Source of the DNA: Candidatus Rokuibacteriota bacterium
GTDB lineage: Bacteria; Methylomirabilota; Methylomirabilia; Rokubacteriales; CSP1-6
Assembly (NCBI GenBank): GCA_003220435.1
Contig: QHSL01000097.1
Span: 1 to 41,501 of the forward strand
Direction: 5' to 3'
DNA length: 41,501 nucleotides
Part shown: positions 14,529-34,727 of the stretch, piece after piece
How the letters are laid out: each line of letters begins with the position of its first letter
How positions within the stretch are numbered: the first letter of the stretch is position 1
The notes under the pieces: generated by a model
Told to the model about the DNA's origin: nothing
The model's database searches: none
What the model saw: the letters and a program-made list of their open reading frames with translations, nothing else
Position numbers and translations under genes: made by a program

Positions 14529-15581
14529 CTAGTCCGCCCGGAAGATCAGGTCGGGCTTGAGATCGGCGATCTTGGTGCGGCCGCAGAGGCCCATCGCAAT
14601 GTGCATCTGCTCGCGAAGGATCTCGAAGACGCGCGCGACGCCGTCGGCGCCGTCGGCGCCCAGCCCCCAGAGGGCCGTTCGCCCGAGCATCACGACCTTG
14701 GCCCCGCGCGCCAAGCCCTTCAGCACGGCGGTGCCTTTCGAGAAGCCGCCGTCGATCACGACCTCGGCGCGCCCGGCCACCGCGTCGACGATCGGCGGGA
14801 GCGCCTCGATGGACGACTGGGTGTGGTCGAGCTGGCGGCCCCCGTGGTTCGACACCCAGATGAGCCGCACGCCCATCTCGGCGGCGCGGCGGGCGTCGGC
14901 CACGGTCATGATGCCCTTGAGCCCGACCGGCAGCTTCGTCGTCTTGATGAGCCACTCGACGTCGGCCCACGTGAGACGCATCTGGTAATCGTGGAACGGT
15001 CCGCGCGGGTTGGGCGCGATCTCCATGGCCTTGCGCGGGCTCCAGCGCGCGAGGATGTCACGCTCGCGCCGGCTGTAGTGCTGGGTGTCGACGGTGAGGG
15101 CGACGGCCTTGTAGCCCGAGGCCTCGACGCGCTTGAGCAGCTCGCCCACCCAGCCGCGATCACCGTGGTGGTAGAGCTGGAACATCTGCGGTGCCTTGCC
15201 GGCCTTAGCCACGTCCTCGACCGGCCAGCCGGTGGCGCCCGAGAGCCACTGGAGCGTGTCGGCCTTCCCGGCGCCGCGCGCCATCTCGACGTCCCCCTCG
15301 GGGTGGAAGAGGACGAGGCCGCCCATGGGCGCGATGCCGACGGGCGACGAGAGCGGCACACCGAGCAGGCTCGTGCTCAGGTCGATCTCGCGCACGTCGA
15401 CGAGGACGTTTTGCGCGATCGCGAGCCGGTTAAGATGGCGACGATTGCGTCGCAGCGTCGCTTCGGACTCGCTGCCGCCGTCGCCGAAGTTCCACGCCTC
15501 GCGGGGCAGGCGGGCGTGAGCGGCGCGGCGGATCTCGGGAAGCGTGGCGAATGGACGTGGGAATTCCTTTGGTTGGGCCAT
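14529..15581 (-). CDS. FMN-dependent alpha-hydroxy-acid oxidase/dehydrogenase
   Basis: A 350-residue TIM-barrel flavoprotein of the lactate dehydrogenase/glycolate oxidase family, oxidising L-2-hydroxy acids to 2-oxo acids. Landmarks are the FGDGGSESEATLRRN N-terminal block, SSPVGIAPMG, LTVDTQHYSRRERD, the FMN-binding Lys222 in GLKGIMT, the catalytic base His246 and substrate-binding Arg249 in SNHGGRQLD, and the phosphate-binding DGGFSKGTAVLKGLARGAK...LGR. FSKG replaces the usual IRRG-type sequence. No membrane-anchoring segment is seen, so it is cytosolic or peripheral. The gene stands alone, with a terminator-like hairpin downstream and a probable leaderless start. Confidence 0.93.
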   Translation of the reverse strand: MAQPKEFPRPFATLPEIRRAAHARLPREAWNFGDGGSESEATLRRNRRHLNRLAIAQNVLVDVREIDLSTSLLGVPLSSPVGIAPMGGLVLFHPEGDVEMARGAGKADTLQWLSGATGWPVEDVAKAGKAPQMFQLYHHGDRGWVGELLKRVEASGYKAVALTVDTQHYSRRERDILARWSPRKAMEIAPNPRGPFHDYQMRLTWADVEWLIKTTKLPVGLKGIMTVADARRAAEMGVRLIWVSNHGGRQLDHTQSSIEALPPIVDAVAGRAEVVIDGGFSKGTAVLKGLARGAKVVMLGRTALWGLGADGADGVARVFEILREQMHIAMGLCGRTKIADLKPDLIFRAD

Positions 15582-15589
15582 GGCGCCGT

Positions 15590-15595
15590 ACTATA
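15590..15595 (-). promoter_or_regulatory. -10-like TATAGT, probable leaderless start of the FMN oxidase
   Basis: TATAGT on the minus strand (one mismatch to TATAAT) ends 8 nt before the ATG at 15581, and no Shine-Dalgarno sequence lies between, consistent with transcription starting at the start codon. No clear -35 box. Confidence 0.42.
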
Positions 15596-15665
15596 CGCCA
15601 GACCGGGCCCCGGAGTCTTGGTACACTGCGCCCACTTCGAAAGAATGGCCTCAGGGAGACTCGAC

Positions 15666-16793
15666 ATGACGGGGAACGGTGGCAGCGCCAGGGGCGTGAG
15701 ACAGGTCGGCTACTTCGACTGCCCGGGCGGCGGGCAGGTGGTGGTCGATGGGCGCGTGGCGTTCATCGCGCACATGAAGGCGCCGCATGGCACGACGCTG
15801 GTGGACGTGAGCGATCCGGCCAGACCTCGGCAGCTCGCGTCGATCGAGGTGCCACCGGGCACGCATTCGCACAAGGTACGCGCCGCCAACGGCCTCATGC
15901 TCGTGAACCGCGAGGCGCACGGCGGCCAGCCGTCGTTGCCGAACCCGCCCCGTGGGCTCGGCATTTACGACGTGTCGACTCCGAGCCGGCCCCGCGAGAT
16001 CACGCTGTGGCGCAGCGGCGGCACCGGCGTTCACCGCTTCACCTTCGACGGTCGCTATGCGTATCTCTCGCCCGAGATGGAAGGCTACGTCGGCAACATC
16101 ATGCTGATCCTCGACCTGGCCGACCCGAGCCGGCCGCAGGAAGTCGGCCGCTGGTGGATGCCCGGGCAGTGGACGGCCGGCGGCGAGACGCCGTCGTGGT
16201 CCGGGCGACAGCACCGCTGTCATCATCCCATTCGTCTCGGCGACCGGCTCTACGTCAGCTACTGGCATGGTGGCTTCGTCATCCTCGACGTGGAGGACCT
16301 CGCGAAGCCGCGTTTCGTCTCCGGCCTGGACTGGAGCCCGCCGTTCCTGACGCCGACCCACACGGCGCTGCCGGTGCCCTTCCCGCTCAATGGCCGGCGC
16401 GTTATGCTGGTGGCCGACGAAGACGTCGCCAAGCTCGAGCCCGGACCACCCGCGTTCCTGTGGCTGGTCGACATCACCGACGAGAAGAAGCCCGTGCCGT
16501 TCGCGAGCTTCCAGGTGGAGGGCGTCGACGGCACGCAGCCGGACATGACCGGGTGCCACCAGCCGTGCGAGGCGATCACGTCGACCGAGATTCCGGTGGC
16601 GTGGTTCGCCAACGGCCTGCGCATCGTGGACATCGCCAGGCCGCACGCGCCGCGCGAGGTCGCGCACTTCCTGCCGCCGGTGCCCGAGGGATCGACGCGC
16701 GTGTGCAGCAACGACGTGTGCTTCGACGACCGCGGCCTCATGTACCTGGTCGACCGCGGGCGCGGGGTCCACATCCTCGAGCGCGCGGGATGA
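15666..16793 (+). CDS. LVIVD-repeat beta-propeller protein
   Basis: A 375-residue protein made of repeated strands of the LVIVD type: TTLVDVSDPARPRQLASIEVP, GIYDVSTPSRPREITLW, LILDLADPSRPQEVGRWW, FVILDVEDLAKPRF, LRIVDIARPHAPREVAHF. Each repeat has the (V/I)D(V/I)xxPxxP signature and together they form a probable propeller. His/Cys residues such as RQHRCHHP (about 180) and GCHQPCEA (about 297) could bind metal. No signal peptide. I chose the ATG at 15666 (AGGGAGA 6 nt upstream) over the ATG at 15645. Function unknown. ProRS follows after 21 nt. Confidence 0.85.
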   Translation: MTGNGGSARGVRQVGYFDCPGGGQVVVDGRVAFIAHMKAPHGTTLVDVSDPARPRQLASIEVPPGTHSHKVRAANGLMLVNREAHGGQPSLPNPPRGLGIYDVSTPSRPREITLWRSGGTGVHRFTFDGRYAYLSPEMEGYVGNIMLILDLADPSRPQEVGRWWMPGQWTAGGETPSWSGRQHRCHHPIRLGDRLYVSYWHGGFVILDVEDLAKPRFVSGLDWSPPFLTPTHTALPVPFPLNGRRVMLVADEDVAKLEPGPPAFLWLVDITDEKKPVPFASFQVEGVDGTQPDMTGCHQPCEAITSTEIPVAWFANGLRIVDIARPHAPREVAHFLPPVPEGSTRVCSNDVCFDDRGLMYLVDRGRGVHILERAG

Positions 16794-16814
16794 CGGAGCG
16801 CTCGGAGGCGCCGG

Positions 16815-18254
16815 ATGGCCGATAGCCTGCCGACCCGCCAGCAGGATTTCAACGAGTGGTACAACCAGCTCGTGCTGCGCGCCGACATGGCGGACTACGC
16901 GCCGGTCCGCGGCTGCATGATCGTCAAGCCGTACGGCTGGGCGCTCTGGGAGAACATCCAGGGGGCGCTCGATCGGCGCTTCAAGGCCACCGGCCACGTG
17001 AACGCCGCGTTCCCGCTCTTCATCCCGAAGTCGTTCCTCGAGAAGGAGAAGCAGCACGTCGAGGGGTTCGCCCCCGAGCTGGCCGTGGTGACGATCGGCG
17101 GCGGCGAGGAGCTGGCCGAGCCGCTGATCGTCCGGCCGACCTCCGAGACGATCATCGGCCACGCGTACGCGCACTGGATCAAGTCGTATCGCGATCTGCC
17201 CGTGCTGATCAACCAGTGGAACAGCGTTGTCCGCTGGGAGCTCCGCACCAAGCTCTTCTTGAGGACGCTGGAGTTCTGGTGGCAGGAGGGCCACACCGCG
17301 CACGCGACCTACGACGAGGCGGAAGCCGAGACGCGGCAGATGCTCGACGTGTACACCGACTTCGCGGTCAACGAGGCGGCGGTGCCCGTCATTCCGGGCG
17401 TCAAGTCGGCGGCCGAGAAGTTCGCCGGCGCGGTTCACTCCTACACGATCGAGGCGATGATGGGCGACAAGCGGGCGCTGCAGGCCGGCACCTCGCACAA
17501 CCTCGGCCAGAACTTCGCCAAGGCGTTCGACATCAAGTACCTCGACCAGGGCAACGAGCTGCAGCACTGCTGGACGACCTCGTGGGGGCTCTCGACCCGG
17601 TTCATCGGCGCCATCATCATGGTCCACGGCGACGACCAGGGACTGGTGCTGCCGCCGCGGCTCGCGCCGCATCAGGTCGTGATCGTGCCGATCTACCGGA
17701 GCGACGCCGAGCGCGCCACGGTGCTCGAGGCCGCGGGGCGGGTGCGAAAGCAGCTCGTGGCCAATGGCGTGCGTGTGAAGCTCGACGAGCGCGACGGGGT
17801 CACGCCCGGCTTCAAGTTCAACGACTGGGAGATGCGAGGCGTGCCGCTCCGCATCGAGATCGGCCCGCGTGACGTCGAGAAGCGCTCCGTCGTCCTGGCC
17901 CGGCGCGACACGCCCGGGAAGGCCGGCAAGTCATTCGCGCCGGAGGAAGGGCTCAGCGGCGCGGTGACGGCGATGCTGGAGTCGATTCAGAAGTCGCTCT
18001 ACGAGCGGGCGGCGGAGTTCCTGCGGGCCAACACCTCGGAGCCCCGGACCTACGACGACTTCAGGCAGGCGATCGAGGCCGGCGGCTTCTGCCGGGTGTG
18101 GTGGTCCGGCGACGTCGAGCGCGAGGCCGCGATCAAGGAAGAGACGAAGGCGACGATTCGTTGCATCCCGCTCGAGCAGCCCGGCGGCGAAGGGCCTTGC
18201 ATCGGCACTGGCCGGCCGGCCACGCAGGTTGCGATCTTCGGCCGCGCGTACTGA
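16815..18254 (+). CDS. proS: Prolyl-tRNA synthetase, archaeal/eukaryal-type (ProS type 3)
   Basis: A 479-residue class II aminoacyl-tRNA synthetase that charges tRNA-Pro in the cytosol. The type-3 architecture (no editing insertion; C-terminal extension ending in GRAY) separates it from the longer bacterial type. Recognisable blocks are RGCMIVKPYGWALWENIQ, LIVRPTSETIIGHAYAHW (motif 2 region), the WELRTKLFLRTLEFWWQEGHTAH loop, AGTSHNLGQNFAKAFDI, and motif 3 in TSWGLSTRFIGAIIMVHGDDQGLVLPP. The anticodon-binding domain begins at about residue 285. The zinc-site-like region keeps only three cysteines (GFCRVWW, IRCIP, GPCIG), so zinc may be lost. GGAGG precedes the ATG. Confidence 0.96.
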   Translation: MADSLPTRQQDFNEWYNQLVLRADMADYAPVRGCMIVKPYGWALWENIQGALDRRFKATGHVNAAFPLFIPKSFLEKEKQHVEGFAPELAVVTIGGGEELAEPLIVRPTSETIIGHAYAHWIKSYRDLPVLINQWNSVVRWELRTKLFLRTLEFWWQEGHTAHATYDEAEAETRQMLDVYTDFAVNEAAVPVIPGVKSAAEKFAGAVHSYTIEAMMGDKRALQAGTSHNLGQNFAKAFDIKYLDQGNELQHCWTTSWGLSTRFIGAIIMVHGDDQGLVLPPRLAPHQVVIVPIYRSDAERATVLEAAGRVRKQLVANGVRVKLDERDGVTPGFKFNDWEMRGVPLRIEIGPRDVEKRSVVLARRDTPGKAGKSFAPEEGLSGAVTAMLESIQKSLYERAAEFLRANTSEPRTYDDFRQAIEAGGFCRVWWSGDVEREAAIKEETKATIRCIPLEQPGGEGPCIGTGRPATQVAIFGRAY

Positions 18255-29841: not shown

Positions 29842-29901
29842 GTCCACGGTTGGTGCTAAGAAAGGATCACGCTGCTGACACGTCACGAGCGGAGGTGAGA
29901 G

Positions 29902-31551
29902 ATGAGCGCCGCTGAGAAGATCTCGGTTCTGAACCCGATGGGCTTCGCGCCGAAGGTGGTCCAGAAGGACCTGGCGCCACGACTCGACACCCTCGACGGC
30001 AAGACCGTTTATCTCGTCGACTGCCGGTTCGACGACTCGGACCTGTTCCTCAGGCAGATGCAGGCGTGGTTCGCCGAGCACATGCCCGCCGTGCGGACCG
30101 TCTTCAAGCCGATCTCGAGCGTGTACCTCAACGACGACCCGGCCACGTGGGAGGAGATCAAGGCGAGGGGGCACGCCGCGATCGTCGGCGTCGGCCACTG
30201 AAGCACCTGCGCGCCGGCGGTCGCCGCGCACGCGATGACGATCGAAGCGAAGTACGGGGTACCCACCGTCGCCATACACACCGACAAGTTCGACCGGGTC
30301 GTCCGGTCGGTCGCCTCGGTGAACGGGATGGCCGGGCTCCGGCAGGTGTTCGTCCCTCAGCCCGTCATGGGCAAATCGGCGCGCGAGCTGCGCGCGTACG
30401 TCGACGGGAAGGACCCGCTCACCGGCCGGCCCGTCATGCAGGAAGTCATCGAGGGGCTCACCGCCCCGCCGAGCGGCGAGGGCGGAGACCGGATCGAGTA
30501 CGACCGATCCACGCCGCGTCTCGTCGAGCCCGACACGGAGGAGAGTCTCCACCGGCTGTTCATGGAGAACCGGTGGACCGACTATCTGCCGATCGTGCTG
30601 CCGACCGAGGAGCGGGTGGCGGCGATGCTGGCGGCCACCCGCCGCAAGCCCGACGAGATCGTCGGGCGCATGCGGCCGACCCATTTCCGCGAGGCCTGGC
30701 AGTACACGGTGGAAAAAGTCGCGGTGAATGCCGTGATGGCCGGGGCGCGACCGGAATATTTCCCCGTGATCCTGGCGCTCGCCGCGACCGGCGTGAGCGC
30801 GCGCGGCAGCACGACCAGCTCGATGGCGGCCATGGCCGTCGTCAACGGGCCGATTCGCCTCGAGATCAAGATGAACGCGGGCACCGGCGCGCTGGCGCCG
30901 TACAACCACGCCAACGCCACCATCGGGCGCGCCTACGGCCTCCTGTCGCAGAATCTCCAGGGCGGCTCGGTGCCCGGGCTCACCTACATGGGGTCGCAGG
31001 GGAACAACTACGCCTACAACAGCATCACGTTCCCCGAGAACGAGGAGCGGAGCCCGTGGGAGCCGTTCCACGTCCAGCACGGCTTCCGTCCGTCCGACAG
31101 CACCGTGAGCGTCTTCTCGGGGTGCCGCGGCACCGCCTACACGCTCGGGATCCGCGAGAAGCACTGGCGCGAGCACGTCCGCAACATGCTGCGCGGGATG
31201 GATCCGCACGTCCCGCCGGTCTTCGTGCTCGACCCGATCACCGCGCGGCAGTTCATCGACCGCGGCGGGTTCACCAAGAAGGATGCGCTGATCGACTGGA
31301 TCTACGAGAACGCCCAGATGCCGGCCGGCGAGTACTGGGACTACCAGCTCGTGCAGAACTACATCTACCCGCGCGCCACCTTCGGCGAGGAGCCGTGGGC
31401 GTCGAAGCTCAAGGTGGCACCGGACCAGATGATCCAGGTGTTCAAGCGGGACGACATCCACGTCGTGGTCGTCGGCGGCGAGACCAACGGCTACTGGCGC
31501 ATCATGGGCGCCACCTACGCCAAGACCGTCTCGGTGGACGACTGGCGATAG
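29902..31551 (+). CDS. UGSC-family selenoprotein with in-frame TGA (Sec100), two-domain
   Basis: One 549-residue frame containing TGA at 30199-30201, read here as selenocysteine 100. Residues 5-180 match the UGSC (seleno)protein family: LDGKTVYLVDCRFDDSD, a helix, AIVGVGH-U-STCAPAVAAHAM, GVPTVAIHTDKF, and VFVPQPVMG. The family's redox motif U/C-G-S-C is here U-S-T-C (Sec100, Cys103). Homology runs straight through the TGA in the same frame. A hairpin with a GGU-containing loop follows at SECIS distance. Residues 205-549 form a second domain seen with this family (REAWQYTVEKVAVNAVMAGARPEYFPVI, MNAGTGALAPYNHANATIGRA, FSGCRGTAY), of unknown activity. GGAGGTGAGAG precedes the ATG. A termination at TGA would leave a 99-aa fragment lacking the redox motif. 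Probably a cytosolic redox or reductase enzyme. Confidence 0.82.
30208..30230 (+). promoter_or_regulatory. Candidate bacterial SECIS element
   Basis: Six nt after the TGA begins a hairpin: TGCGCG pairs with CGCGCA (6 bp), then a C-C mismatch, then two more pairs closing a small loop that contains GGT. The loop G-U lies about 18-20 nt after the TGA, within the range known for bacterial SECIS elements recognised by SelB. Folded by eye only. Confidence 0.55.
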
Positions 31552-31591: not shown

Positions 31592-32659
31592 TTGAAGCTC
31601 ACCCGGCGGACGGCGCTGACTCTGGCCGGGCTGGCGGCGCTCGGCATCACGGTCCCGGCGTGCCGCCAGATGCTCCGGCAGATGTTGTTCTCTCCGGACG
31701 CGACCCCGGCTGCAGCACCGCTGCCCGCCGACAATCCGTTTCGTGCCGGCGGGAGGAGTCTCGTCGCGATCGTGCACGGTGACGATCCAGCGGCCATGGT
31801 TCGCCGAGCGGTGGAGCTGATCGGTGGTTTCGACCGGCTCGATCTCCGCGGCCGGCGGACCCTTGTGAAGCCGAACGTCGTCTCGGGGAGCCCGCCGCCC
31901 ACGACCACGGACCCGCGTGTCGTCCATTCGGTGTTGGAGCTGGCCAGAACGGCCGGAGCCGGCTCCCTCGCCGTCGGTGAGATGTCGGCAGTGCTGTCGC
32001 TCCCGAGCCGTCCGCATCTCGTGCAGACCGGGATCGCCCGCGTGGCCACCGAGGTCGGCGCGATGCTTCTCGCCTTCGACGAGGGCGACTGGGTCGAGGT
32101 GCGTCCTCCCGCCGCCGAGTACGCGACGAGCGTGTACGTGGCGAAGGCCGTCCACGAGGCGGAACGGCTGATCAGCGTGCCCGTCATCAAGACCCATCGA
32201 AACGCGAGCTTCAGCTGCGCGCTCAAGAACACCGTCGGATGTGTCCACGGCAAGAACAAGCCCTGGGCGTACGGCGGTGCCGCCTGGGAGCCCGTGGTGG
32301 CCGAGCTCAATCTGGCCGTGCGCCCACACCTGTACGTCGTGGATGGTCTCCAGAGCATGGTGGCCGGCGGCCCGTGGTCCGGCGAGAGCGTTCGGACCAA
32401 TGTGATCCTGGCCAGTGGCGACCCCGTCGCCATGGATGTCGTGGTGCTCGGTCTCCTGAAGTCGGCTGGACGATGGGAGCTCGTGATCGGGAAGGACGTG
32501 TGGGAGCAGCGCCAGATCCGGCGCGCCGTCGCCCTCGGTCTGGGGGCGCGTGGCCCCGCCGATGTGGCGCTCGTGGCCGAGGATCTGACCCCTGAGGACC
32601 GGGGCTTCCGCGAACTCCTCGACAGCGTCAGACGCGAAGTTGGGCTCGTTCGGGCCTGA
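31592..32659 (+). CDS. DUF362 domain protein with Tat/lipoprotein-type signal
   Basis: A 355-residue DUF362 protein. TTG start; N-terminus MKLTRRTALTLAGLAALGITVPAC has a twin-arginine-like TRRTALT motif and a lipobox-like VPAC with Cys24, suggesting an exported, possibly lipid-anchored protein. The DUF362 core follows: GRRTLVKPNVVSGSPPPTTTDPRVVHSVLEL, LISVPVIKTHRNASFSCALKNTVGCVHGKNK and LYVVDGLQSMVAGGPWSGESV...ASGDPVAMDVV. No C-terminal ferredoxin (CxxCxxCxxxC) domain is present. It starts 40 nt after the UGSC selenoprotein gene and is probably cotranscribed. Role unknown. Confidence 0.88.
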   Translation: MKLTRRTALTLAGLAALGITVPACRQMLRQMLFSPDATPAAAPLPADNPFRAGGRSLVAIVHGDDPAAMVRRAVELIGGFDRLDLRGRRTLVKPNVVSGSPPPTTTDPRVVHSVLELARTAGAGSLAVGEMSAVLSLPSRPHLVQTGIARVATEVGAMLLAFDEGDWVEVRPPAAEYATSVYVAKAVHEAERLISVPVIKTHRNASFSCALKNTVGCVHGKNKPWAYGGAAWEPVVAELNLAVRPHLYVVDGLQSMVAGGPWSGESVRTNVILASGDPVAMDVVVLGLLKSAGRWELVIGKDVWEQRQIRRAVALGLGARGPADVALVAEDLTPEDRGFRELLDSVRREVGLVRA

Positions 32660-33712: not shown

Positions 33713-34708
33713 TCAGATGTTCAGCAACCGCTCGAGGTTCTTCCAGAGGATGGCGTCCTTCTCCTCCTGGGTCAGCGACTCCATGCTGAGGATCCAGGAC
33801 ACGGGCCAGTCGAGCGCCATGTCGTACGGCCAGTCGGTGCCGAACACGACCCGGTCCGCGCCCACGGTGTCGATGAGGAAGCGCAGCGCCGACTCGGTGT
33901 AGACGATGCAGTCGTAGTAGAACTTTCGCAGGTACGCGCTCGGCGGCTTGGCGATGTTGGCCCGCGCCTCCGAGCGCACCTGCCATCCCCGGTCCATCCG
34001 TCCGATGCCGTAGCACGTGTAGCCGCCGCCGTGGCCGAGGACGATCTTGAGGTTGGGGCACTCGTCCACGACGCCGCCCGACACCAGCGTCGCGAACGTC
34101 ACCGCGCGGTCGACGAGATTGCCGACGGTGTTGGGCAGGTGATAGCGCTTCGTGCGCGGGCTCACCAGCGTCTCGCCGCCCTGATGGAAGAAGATCAGCG
34201 CGCCGAGCTGATCGGCCGCCTTCCAGAACGGGCGAAACTCCGCCTCGTCGAGGGTGCGGCCGTTGACGTGGTCGTTGATCTCGGCGCCCTTGAGCCCGAG
34301 CTGGGTCACGCAGCGCTCGAGCTCCGAAATCGCGCCCTTCACGTCCTGCATGGGTAGGGTCCCCAGTCCCGCGAACCGCTTGGGCCACGTCTTCGTCATC
34401 GAGCTGATCTCGTCGTTGGTGGCTCGCGCGGTCGCCGCCGCCACCTTCGCGTCGAGGTGGTAGTTGTAGAAGCCGACGTACGGCGAGACGACATGGACGT
34501 CGACGCCGAGCGAGTCCATGTCCGCCAACCGCTCCTCGGGCGTCCACTTCGCACGGGGTGGGAGCACCTGCCGCCGGCCCCCGATGACGGCGCACTCCTG
34601 GCCGCGATCGTCCTTCTCGCGCTTGAGCGAGTGCCAGTCGCCGCCCTTCTCGGTGGCCTGCCAGAAGCACTGCGGGGTCAGATGGGCGTGGACGTCAATG
34701 CTCCGCAT
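33713..34708 (-). CDS. Amidohydrolase 2 (ACMSD-like) metal-dependent hydrolase/decarboxylase
   Basis: A 331-residue TIM-barrel amidohydrolase of the ACMSD/OH-DDVA/gamma-resorcylate group. Metal ligands: HAH (His7, His9) in IDVHAHL; His in LIFFHQGGE; His in IVLGHGGGYTCYG; Asp in FGTDWPYD. Family members decarboxylate or hydrolyse aromatic or ring-fission acids using zinc or manganese. ATG at 34708 sits 5 nt after AGGAGGG; an ATG at 34723 lies ahead of that site. Divergent from a Gfo/Idh/MocA gene 32 bp away, so both are probably regulated from the same short region. Confidence 0.93.
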   Translation of the reverse strand: MRSIDVHAHLTPQCFWQATEKGGDWHSLKREKDDRGQECAVIGGRRQVLPPRAKWTPEERLADMDSLGVDVHVVSPYVGFYNYHLDAKVAAATARATNDEISSMTKTWPKRFAGLGTLPMQDVKGAISELERCVTQLGLKGAEINDHVNGRTLDEAEFRPFWKAADQLGALIFFHQGGETLVSPRTKRYHLPNTVGNLVDRAVTFATLVSGGVVDECPNLKIVLGHGGGYTCYGIGRMDRGWQVRSEARANIAKPPSAYLRKFYYDCIVYTESALRFLIDTVGADRVVFGTDWPYDMALDWPVSWILSMESLTQEEKDAILWKNLERLLNI

Positions 34709-34727
34709 CGGTCCCTCCTGCACCTGC

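Follow-up and report, generated by a model that had tools for sequence, protein, structure and literature searches.

A UGSC-family selenoprotein with a fused partner domain in a Rokubacteria genome, a candidate TrxR-recharged selenol reductase

Is the TGA that interrupts a long forward frame in the window (the whole 41,501-nucleotide stretch of DNA analyzed here) a stop separating two genes or a selenocysteine codon within one, and, in the latter case, what might the product do? Between an ATG at 29902 and a TAG at 31549 to 31551, the frame holds this single TGA and no other stop (Table 1). Standard ORF calling divides it into 29902 to 30201 (99 aa) and 30235 to 31551 (438 aa), the two-ORF outcome that the earlier note, which proposed a UGSC-family selenoprotein, had anticipated. 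Its statement that the TGA at 30199 lies in the same frame on both sides was confirmed by the joined translation, in which Sec100 is flanked by GHAAIVGVGH-Sec-STCAPAVAAHAMTIEAK. The start was fixed at 29902 because of the Shine-Dalgarno-like sequence and an upstream in-frame stop at 29896. The open frame alone is little proof of a single gene because long in-frame joins turn up repeatedly in so GC-rich a window, where 14 combine at least 90 aa before a stop with at least 400 aa after it. The abundance of long open frames flanking stops also lends some color to the view that this is a broken gene or an assembly error. The evidence that goes beyond chance comprises the extension of the UGSC family across the TGA, the TGA/Cys column in the homologues, and the SECIS signature.

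Table 1. Coordinates of the gene, its elements and a neighboring gene in the window
Feature	Position	Strand	Remarks
Complete selenoprotein gene (UGSC domain plus "Unknown_1"-type partner domain)	29902..31551	+	549 residues, Sec at 100
Shine-Dalgarno-like GGAGG	29891..29895	+	6 nt before ATG; basis, sequence
UGSC domain (PF24696)	29926..30402	+	residues 9-167; Pfam profile
TGA read as selenocysteine 100	30199..30201	+	frame unchanged on either side
C103, the cysteine of U-S-T-C, presumed to be resolving	30208..30210	+	invariant across all aligned homologues
Bacterial SECIS hairpin (predicted)	30213..30229	+	columns 15-20 paired with 25-31 in a stem with one bulge; 17 nt after TGA
C-terminal partner domain	30499..31548	+	about residues 200-549; no Pfam family
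Amidohydrolase_2 (PF04909) gene	33713..34723	-	several lineages have amidohydrolases near the fusion gene

A Pfam search of the joined protein up to E = 1 recovered only UGSC (PF24696; 89.9 bits against a cutoff of 25; E = 2.7e-25). The match spans the TGA, bearing out the description of family-like sequence before and after it, and each half scores weaker against this profile than the joined protein does. The NCBI equivalog model NF041046 gave 63.1 bits, below its cutoff of 125, a shortfall that on sequence grounds marks a distinct subgroup within the same superfamily. A scan of GTDB genomes then yielded 52 homologous loci, 50 of which cover the Sec site. The codon column there holds TGA in 48, Cys in two, and nothing else, such that Sec or Cys occupies the predicted column in every locus covering the site. 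The observation that the motif reads U-S-T-C rather than U-G-S-C proved correct; it is read by 43 of the 48 Sec loci (USSC by four) and is thus the standard motif of the fusion subgroup and no oddity.

The two Cys loci belong to alphaproteobacterial MAGs (L061 and L062), and Neorhizobium galegae plasmids supply an additional Cys form, 67% identical. The three Cys rows examined group as one clade (98/100), which the tree places among the Sec forms. Carriers of Cys forms include cultured rhizobia and a haloarchaeon. Contrary to expectation, the Cys homologues do not signal a lost Sec machinery, both Cys MAGs having kept selA. The nearest named relatives of the window protein are from Candidatus Rokuibacteriota MAGs. 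More widely, UGSC genes were found in 72 of the 95 genomes of the class, and within the Rokubacteria family examined there are 2 to 12 of them per genome; the source genome has seven, each with one TGA, and the relatives' genes likewise show one TGA in each match listed. Three loci deserve separate mention. In N. galegae CP090555.1 (L145; 8977 to 10645), the annotation divides the Cys-form fusion into two hypothetical proteins that overlap, a split that is likely an assembly frameshift, the same fusion being one frame in N. galegae HAMBI 1141 (L158). A distant homologue from Dehalococcoidia (L080) has a Sec motif that is neither UGSC nor USTC and more than one in-frame TGA; a partner-type gene lies nearby, and the arrangement may be tandem or divergent. 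A locus titled Bordetella parapertussis (L063) comes from an environmental MAG with a Sec-type UGSC fusion and selA, and the title is probably a taxonomic mislabel.

This distribution bears on both rival readings of the TGA. Sequencing error is excluded in practice because the same TGA recurs in dozens of independent assemblies, and its presence in 48 loci over many phyla, with Cys in the rest, makes a broken gene exceedingly improbable. Equally far-fetched is the proposal that TGA is a general sense codon under an alternative genetic code, in favor of which nothing was found: in the homologues it is replaced only by Cys, the Pfam-supported genes of the window terminate at ordinary stops under table 11, and the genome has a tRNA-Sec with a TCA anticodon (see below).

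Further evidence against a broken gene came from conservation just downstream of the TGA. When third-base variation was compared at 191 fourfold-degenerate columns in 32 aligned Sec homologues, zero entropy was confined to codons 106 and 107, which make up the loop of the SECIS hairpin; codons 104, 105, 108, and 109, which complete the hairpin, were within the lowest seven. Compensatory changes from G-C to A-U are seen at stem pairs 18-27 and 19-26 in gammaproteobacterial-type sequences, and the Cys homologues have lost the loop G and encode the next serine with TCC instead of AGY. The apical loop, GGUC at 30219 to 30222, is closed by GGC/GCC. Bacterial SECIS elements are described as having a loop of 3 to 9 nt with G in the first two loop positions, a stem of 4 to 16 bp, and a location 16 to 37 nt from the UGA (PMC13188914); the window hairpin agrees in its loop, its 6-bp stem with one bulge, and its spacing. 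A plain uninterrupted 8-bp hairpin was rejected, since it pairs in 64% of cells as against 91% for the bulged form. Shuffled GC-rich sequence folds with a minimum free energy at least as good as that of the hairpin region, and the case for the element is therefore one of conservation and not of stability; an Rfam scan of the window returned no match. Taken together, the sequence evidence is that UGA 100 is read as Sec via this predicted hairpin.

The source genome (5.4 Mb in 147 contigs; 95.5% complete) encodes the complete machinery that this decoding would use, for which the earlier note had proposed a search. selB and selA adjoin on contig 138, with the tRNA-Sec (selC) just upstream of the pair (69.8 bits against 47), and selB, selA, and selD all score above their profile cutoffs. 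selD (G000:C100:66727-67671; L011) holds one in-frame TGA and is itself a selenoprotein gene. With the family match, the Sec/Cys column, the conserved SECIS element, and this machinery all in its support, the region from 29902 to 31551 almost certainly encodes a UGSC-family selenoprotein.

Sequence comparison shows the gene to be a fusion of the UGSC domain with a second domain, on which the earlier note is silent. This partner domain of ca. 350 residues is encoded in other places by a gene of its own beside UGSC: homologues of the partner adjoin classic UGSC genes in the source genome itself (e.g., on contig 17). We infer the partner to be the "Unknown_1" domain named in the GOS selenoproteome survey (PMC2398784). 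It is large and strongly conserved, with D227, N338, R343, E379, and H390 as polar invariants. A Foldseek search of the full model against the PDB and viral structures gave no convincing match for this C-terminal domain, and a phage origin, for which no match was obtained, was set aside; among PDB sequences, too, nothing matched the family profile.

The AlphaFold model (mean pLDDT of 86 over all residues and of 88 within the UGSC domain) presents the UGSC domain as five strands alternating with helices in a Rossmann/flavodoxin-like b-a-b sandwich, with Sec immediately following the third strand. Structural neighbors of this domain resemble it only weakly (TM no higher than about 0.5), with flavodoxin-like proteins among them. 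The same survey suggested a thioredoxin-like fold; neither the predicted topology nor a profile comparison with thioredoxin (about 1%) supports it, and the domain is predicted to be Rossmann/flavodoxin-like. The comparison with thioredoxin-like redox centers drawn in the earlier note thus holds for the U-x-x-C spacing only. In hhalign, the UGSC domain was matched to the Sec end of Rokubacteria GrdB with 77% probability (P = 2e-5), Sec on Sec, over only ca. 60 columns, while the best of 60 column-shuffled controls reached 2.1%. The Sec segment therefore bears a weak but significant sequence resemblance to GrdB. For the partner domain, hhalign gave no sign of homology to GrdE (0.1%) or to the N terminus of GrdB (3.9%), and the chemistry may consequently differ from that of GrdB. 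Separately, contig 17 of the source genome carries, at 15579 to 18078 (L113 and L169), a glycine reductase-type pair of GrdE-like and GrdB-like genes, which is unexpected in a soil relative of the Rokubacteria. A UGSC gene pair is ca. 10 kb away, and the frame of the GrdB-like gene, too, continues through a TGA (ATUGTCNRCG). The Pfam GRDB model (PF07355) seems to stop just short of the Sec residue, which would explain why its matches show no internal stop despite the TGA in the genes. No PDB entry for GrdB was found.

Gene neighborhoods in relatives suggest how the window protein might be recharged. A TrxR-like gene overlaps the stop of the fusion by 4 nt in a Chloroflexota locus (L052) and in the betaproteobacterial-type MAG (L063), lies 3' of the fusion in L050, and begins 3 nt 3' of it in N. 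galegae (L158); on the tree, these loci are spread over three distinct regions. TIGR01292 (TrxR) is the best match for the genes of L050, L052, and L063, with E values of 1e-82 or better and a CxxC motif but scores below the equivalog cutoff; for the Neorhizobium gene, the assignment comes from tblastn and a CASC motif. Among split genes, the order in Arthrobacter is trxB-trxA-partner-UGSC, and in Variovorax SRS16 trxB is near the partner/UGSC pair. No TrxR gene was found beside the fusion in the window or in the Rokubacteria loci examined, and the only TrxR match of the source genome is unlinked, on contig 76. In the window, the amidohydrolase is a possible pathway partner. Amine oxidase and DUF362 were rejected as operon partners, since their adjacency to the gene is conserved no further than among close relatives in the Rokubacteria; the DUF362 gene (31592 to 32659, +) lies directly 3' of the selenoprotein gene and is adjacent elsewhere only in the close relative L066. 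The right end of the window carries aldehyde ferredoxin oxidoreductase domains 2 and 3 (PF01314; 40050 to 41351, -). Amidohydrolases, solute-binding proteins, and catabolic genes lie nearby and suggest a small organic substrate rather than peroxide defense.

We consider the protein to be, with a probability of about 0.6, a substrate-specific, TrxR-recharged selenol reductase that resembles GrdB in its working without being a GrdB. The partner domain would bind the substrate, which Sec100 would attack or by which it would be oxidized; the intermediate would be resolved with Cys103 to a selenenyl-sulfide, and NADPH would restore the selenol and thiol via a TrxR-type flavoprotein, either directly or through thioredoxin. 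The adjacent or overlapping gene would supply the TrxR in some relatives, and in the source genome the role would go to the contig 76 enzyme. A comparable path is described for glycine reductase, in which electrons pass from NADPH to TrxR, Trx, GrdA, and GrdB (PMC3091704).

The U-x-x-C motif and the TrxR neighbors would fit a TrxR-dependent peroxidase equally well, and a paper cited in PMC3091704 reports, going by its title, peroxidase activity of GrdB. That the protein is a peroxidase or thiol-disulfide oxidoreductase of redox defense, and not a metabolic reductase, is nonetheless unlikely: the large conserved partner domain with its many polar invariants is as expected of a substrate-binding enzyme, the seven UGSC genes of the source genome better fit diverse substrates, and the neighbors are catabolic and uptake genes. 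Given the lack of a convincing fold match for the partner domain, the reaction might be of another class, without redox chemistry (C-S cleavage or isomerization), in which Sec would act as nucleophile or bind a metal, with TrxR only keeping the pair reduced; the invariant C103 and the linked TrxR genes favor a redox pair tied to turnover and render this distinctly unlikely. If the selenol reductase reading holds, UGSC and its partner could tentatively be viewed as a widespread TrxR-fed class that joins a GrdB-like Sec domain to a new substrate-binding domain, a picture that would take in the expansion of UGSC genes within that Rokubacteria family as well as the Cys form in cultured rhizobia and a haloarchaeon. 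The TrxR gene order, the GrdB-like Sec segment, and the Cys orthologue of cultured N. galegae with its downstream TrxR-like gene together offer a runnable assay. UGSC is an abundant bacterial selenoprotein family, and the subgroup also matters for annotation, as it scores below the current NCBI equivalog cutoff and gene callers would split such genes.

Among known systems, the closest is the UGSC family itself (PF24696/NF041046; the UGSC selenoprotein of the GOS survey), with which the window protein shares the domain, the Sec column, and the U-x-x-C spacing. It differs in its U-S-T-C motif and in scoring such that the equivalog model would not name it. The 2008 survey reports both the UGSC-containing selenoprotein and the UGSC/"Unknown_1" fusion (PMC2398784); the window protein is accordingly a further member of a known selenoprotein family with an architecture already on record. 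Thioredoxin-like U-x-x-C selenoproteins have the spacing of the redox pair in common with it but differ from the strand order and Sec placement predicted for UGSC. GrdB (PF07355) offers a strand-Sec-x-x-C-helix-GIP segment that profiles can align to UGSC, with UxxC in both; it differs in that the window protein has no PF07355 match and in the confinement of the similarity to the short aligned segment. The D-proline reductase PrdB is grouped with GrdB as a close known system, the profile alignment being to GrdB only.
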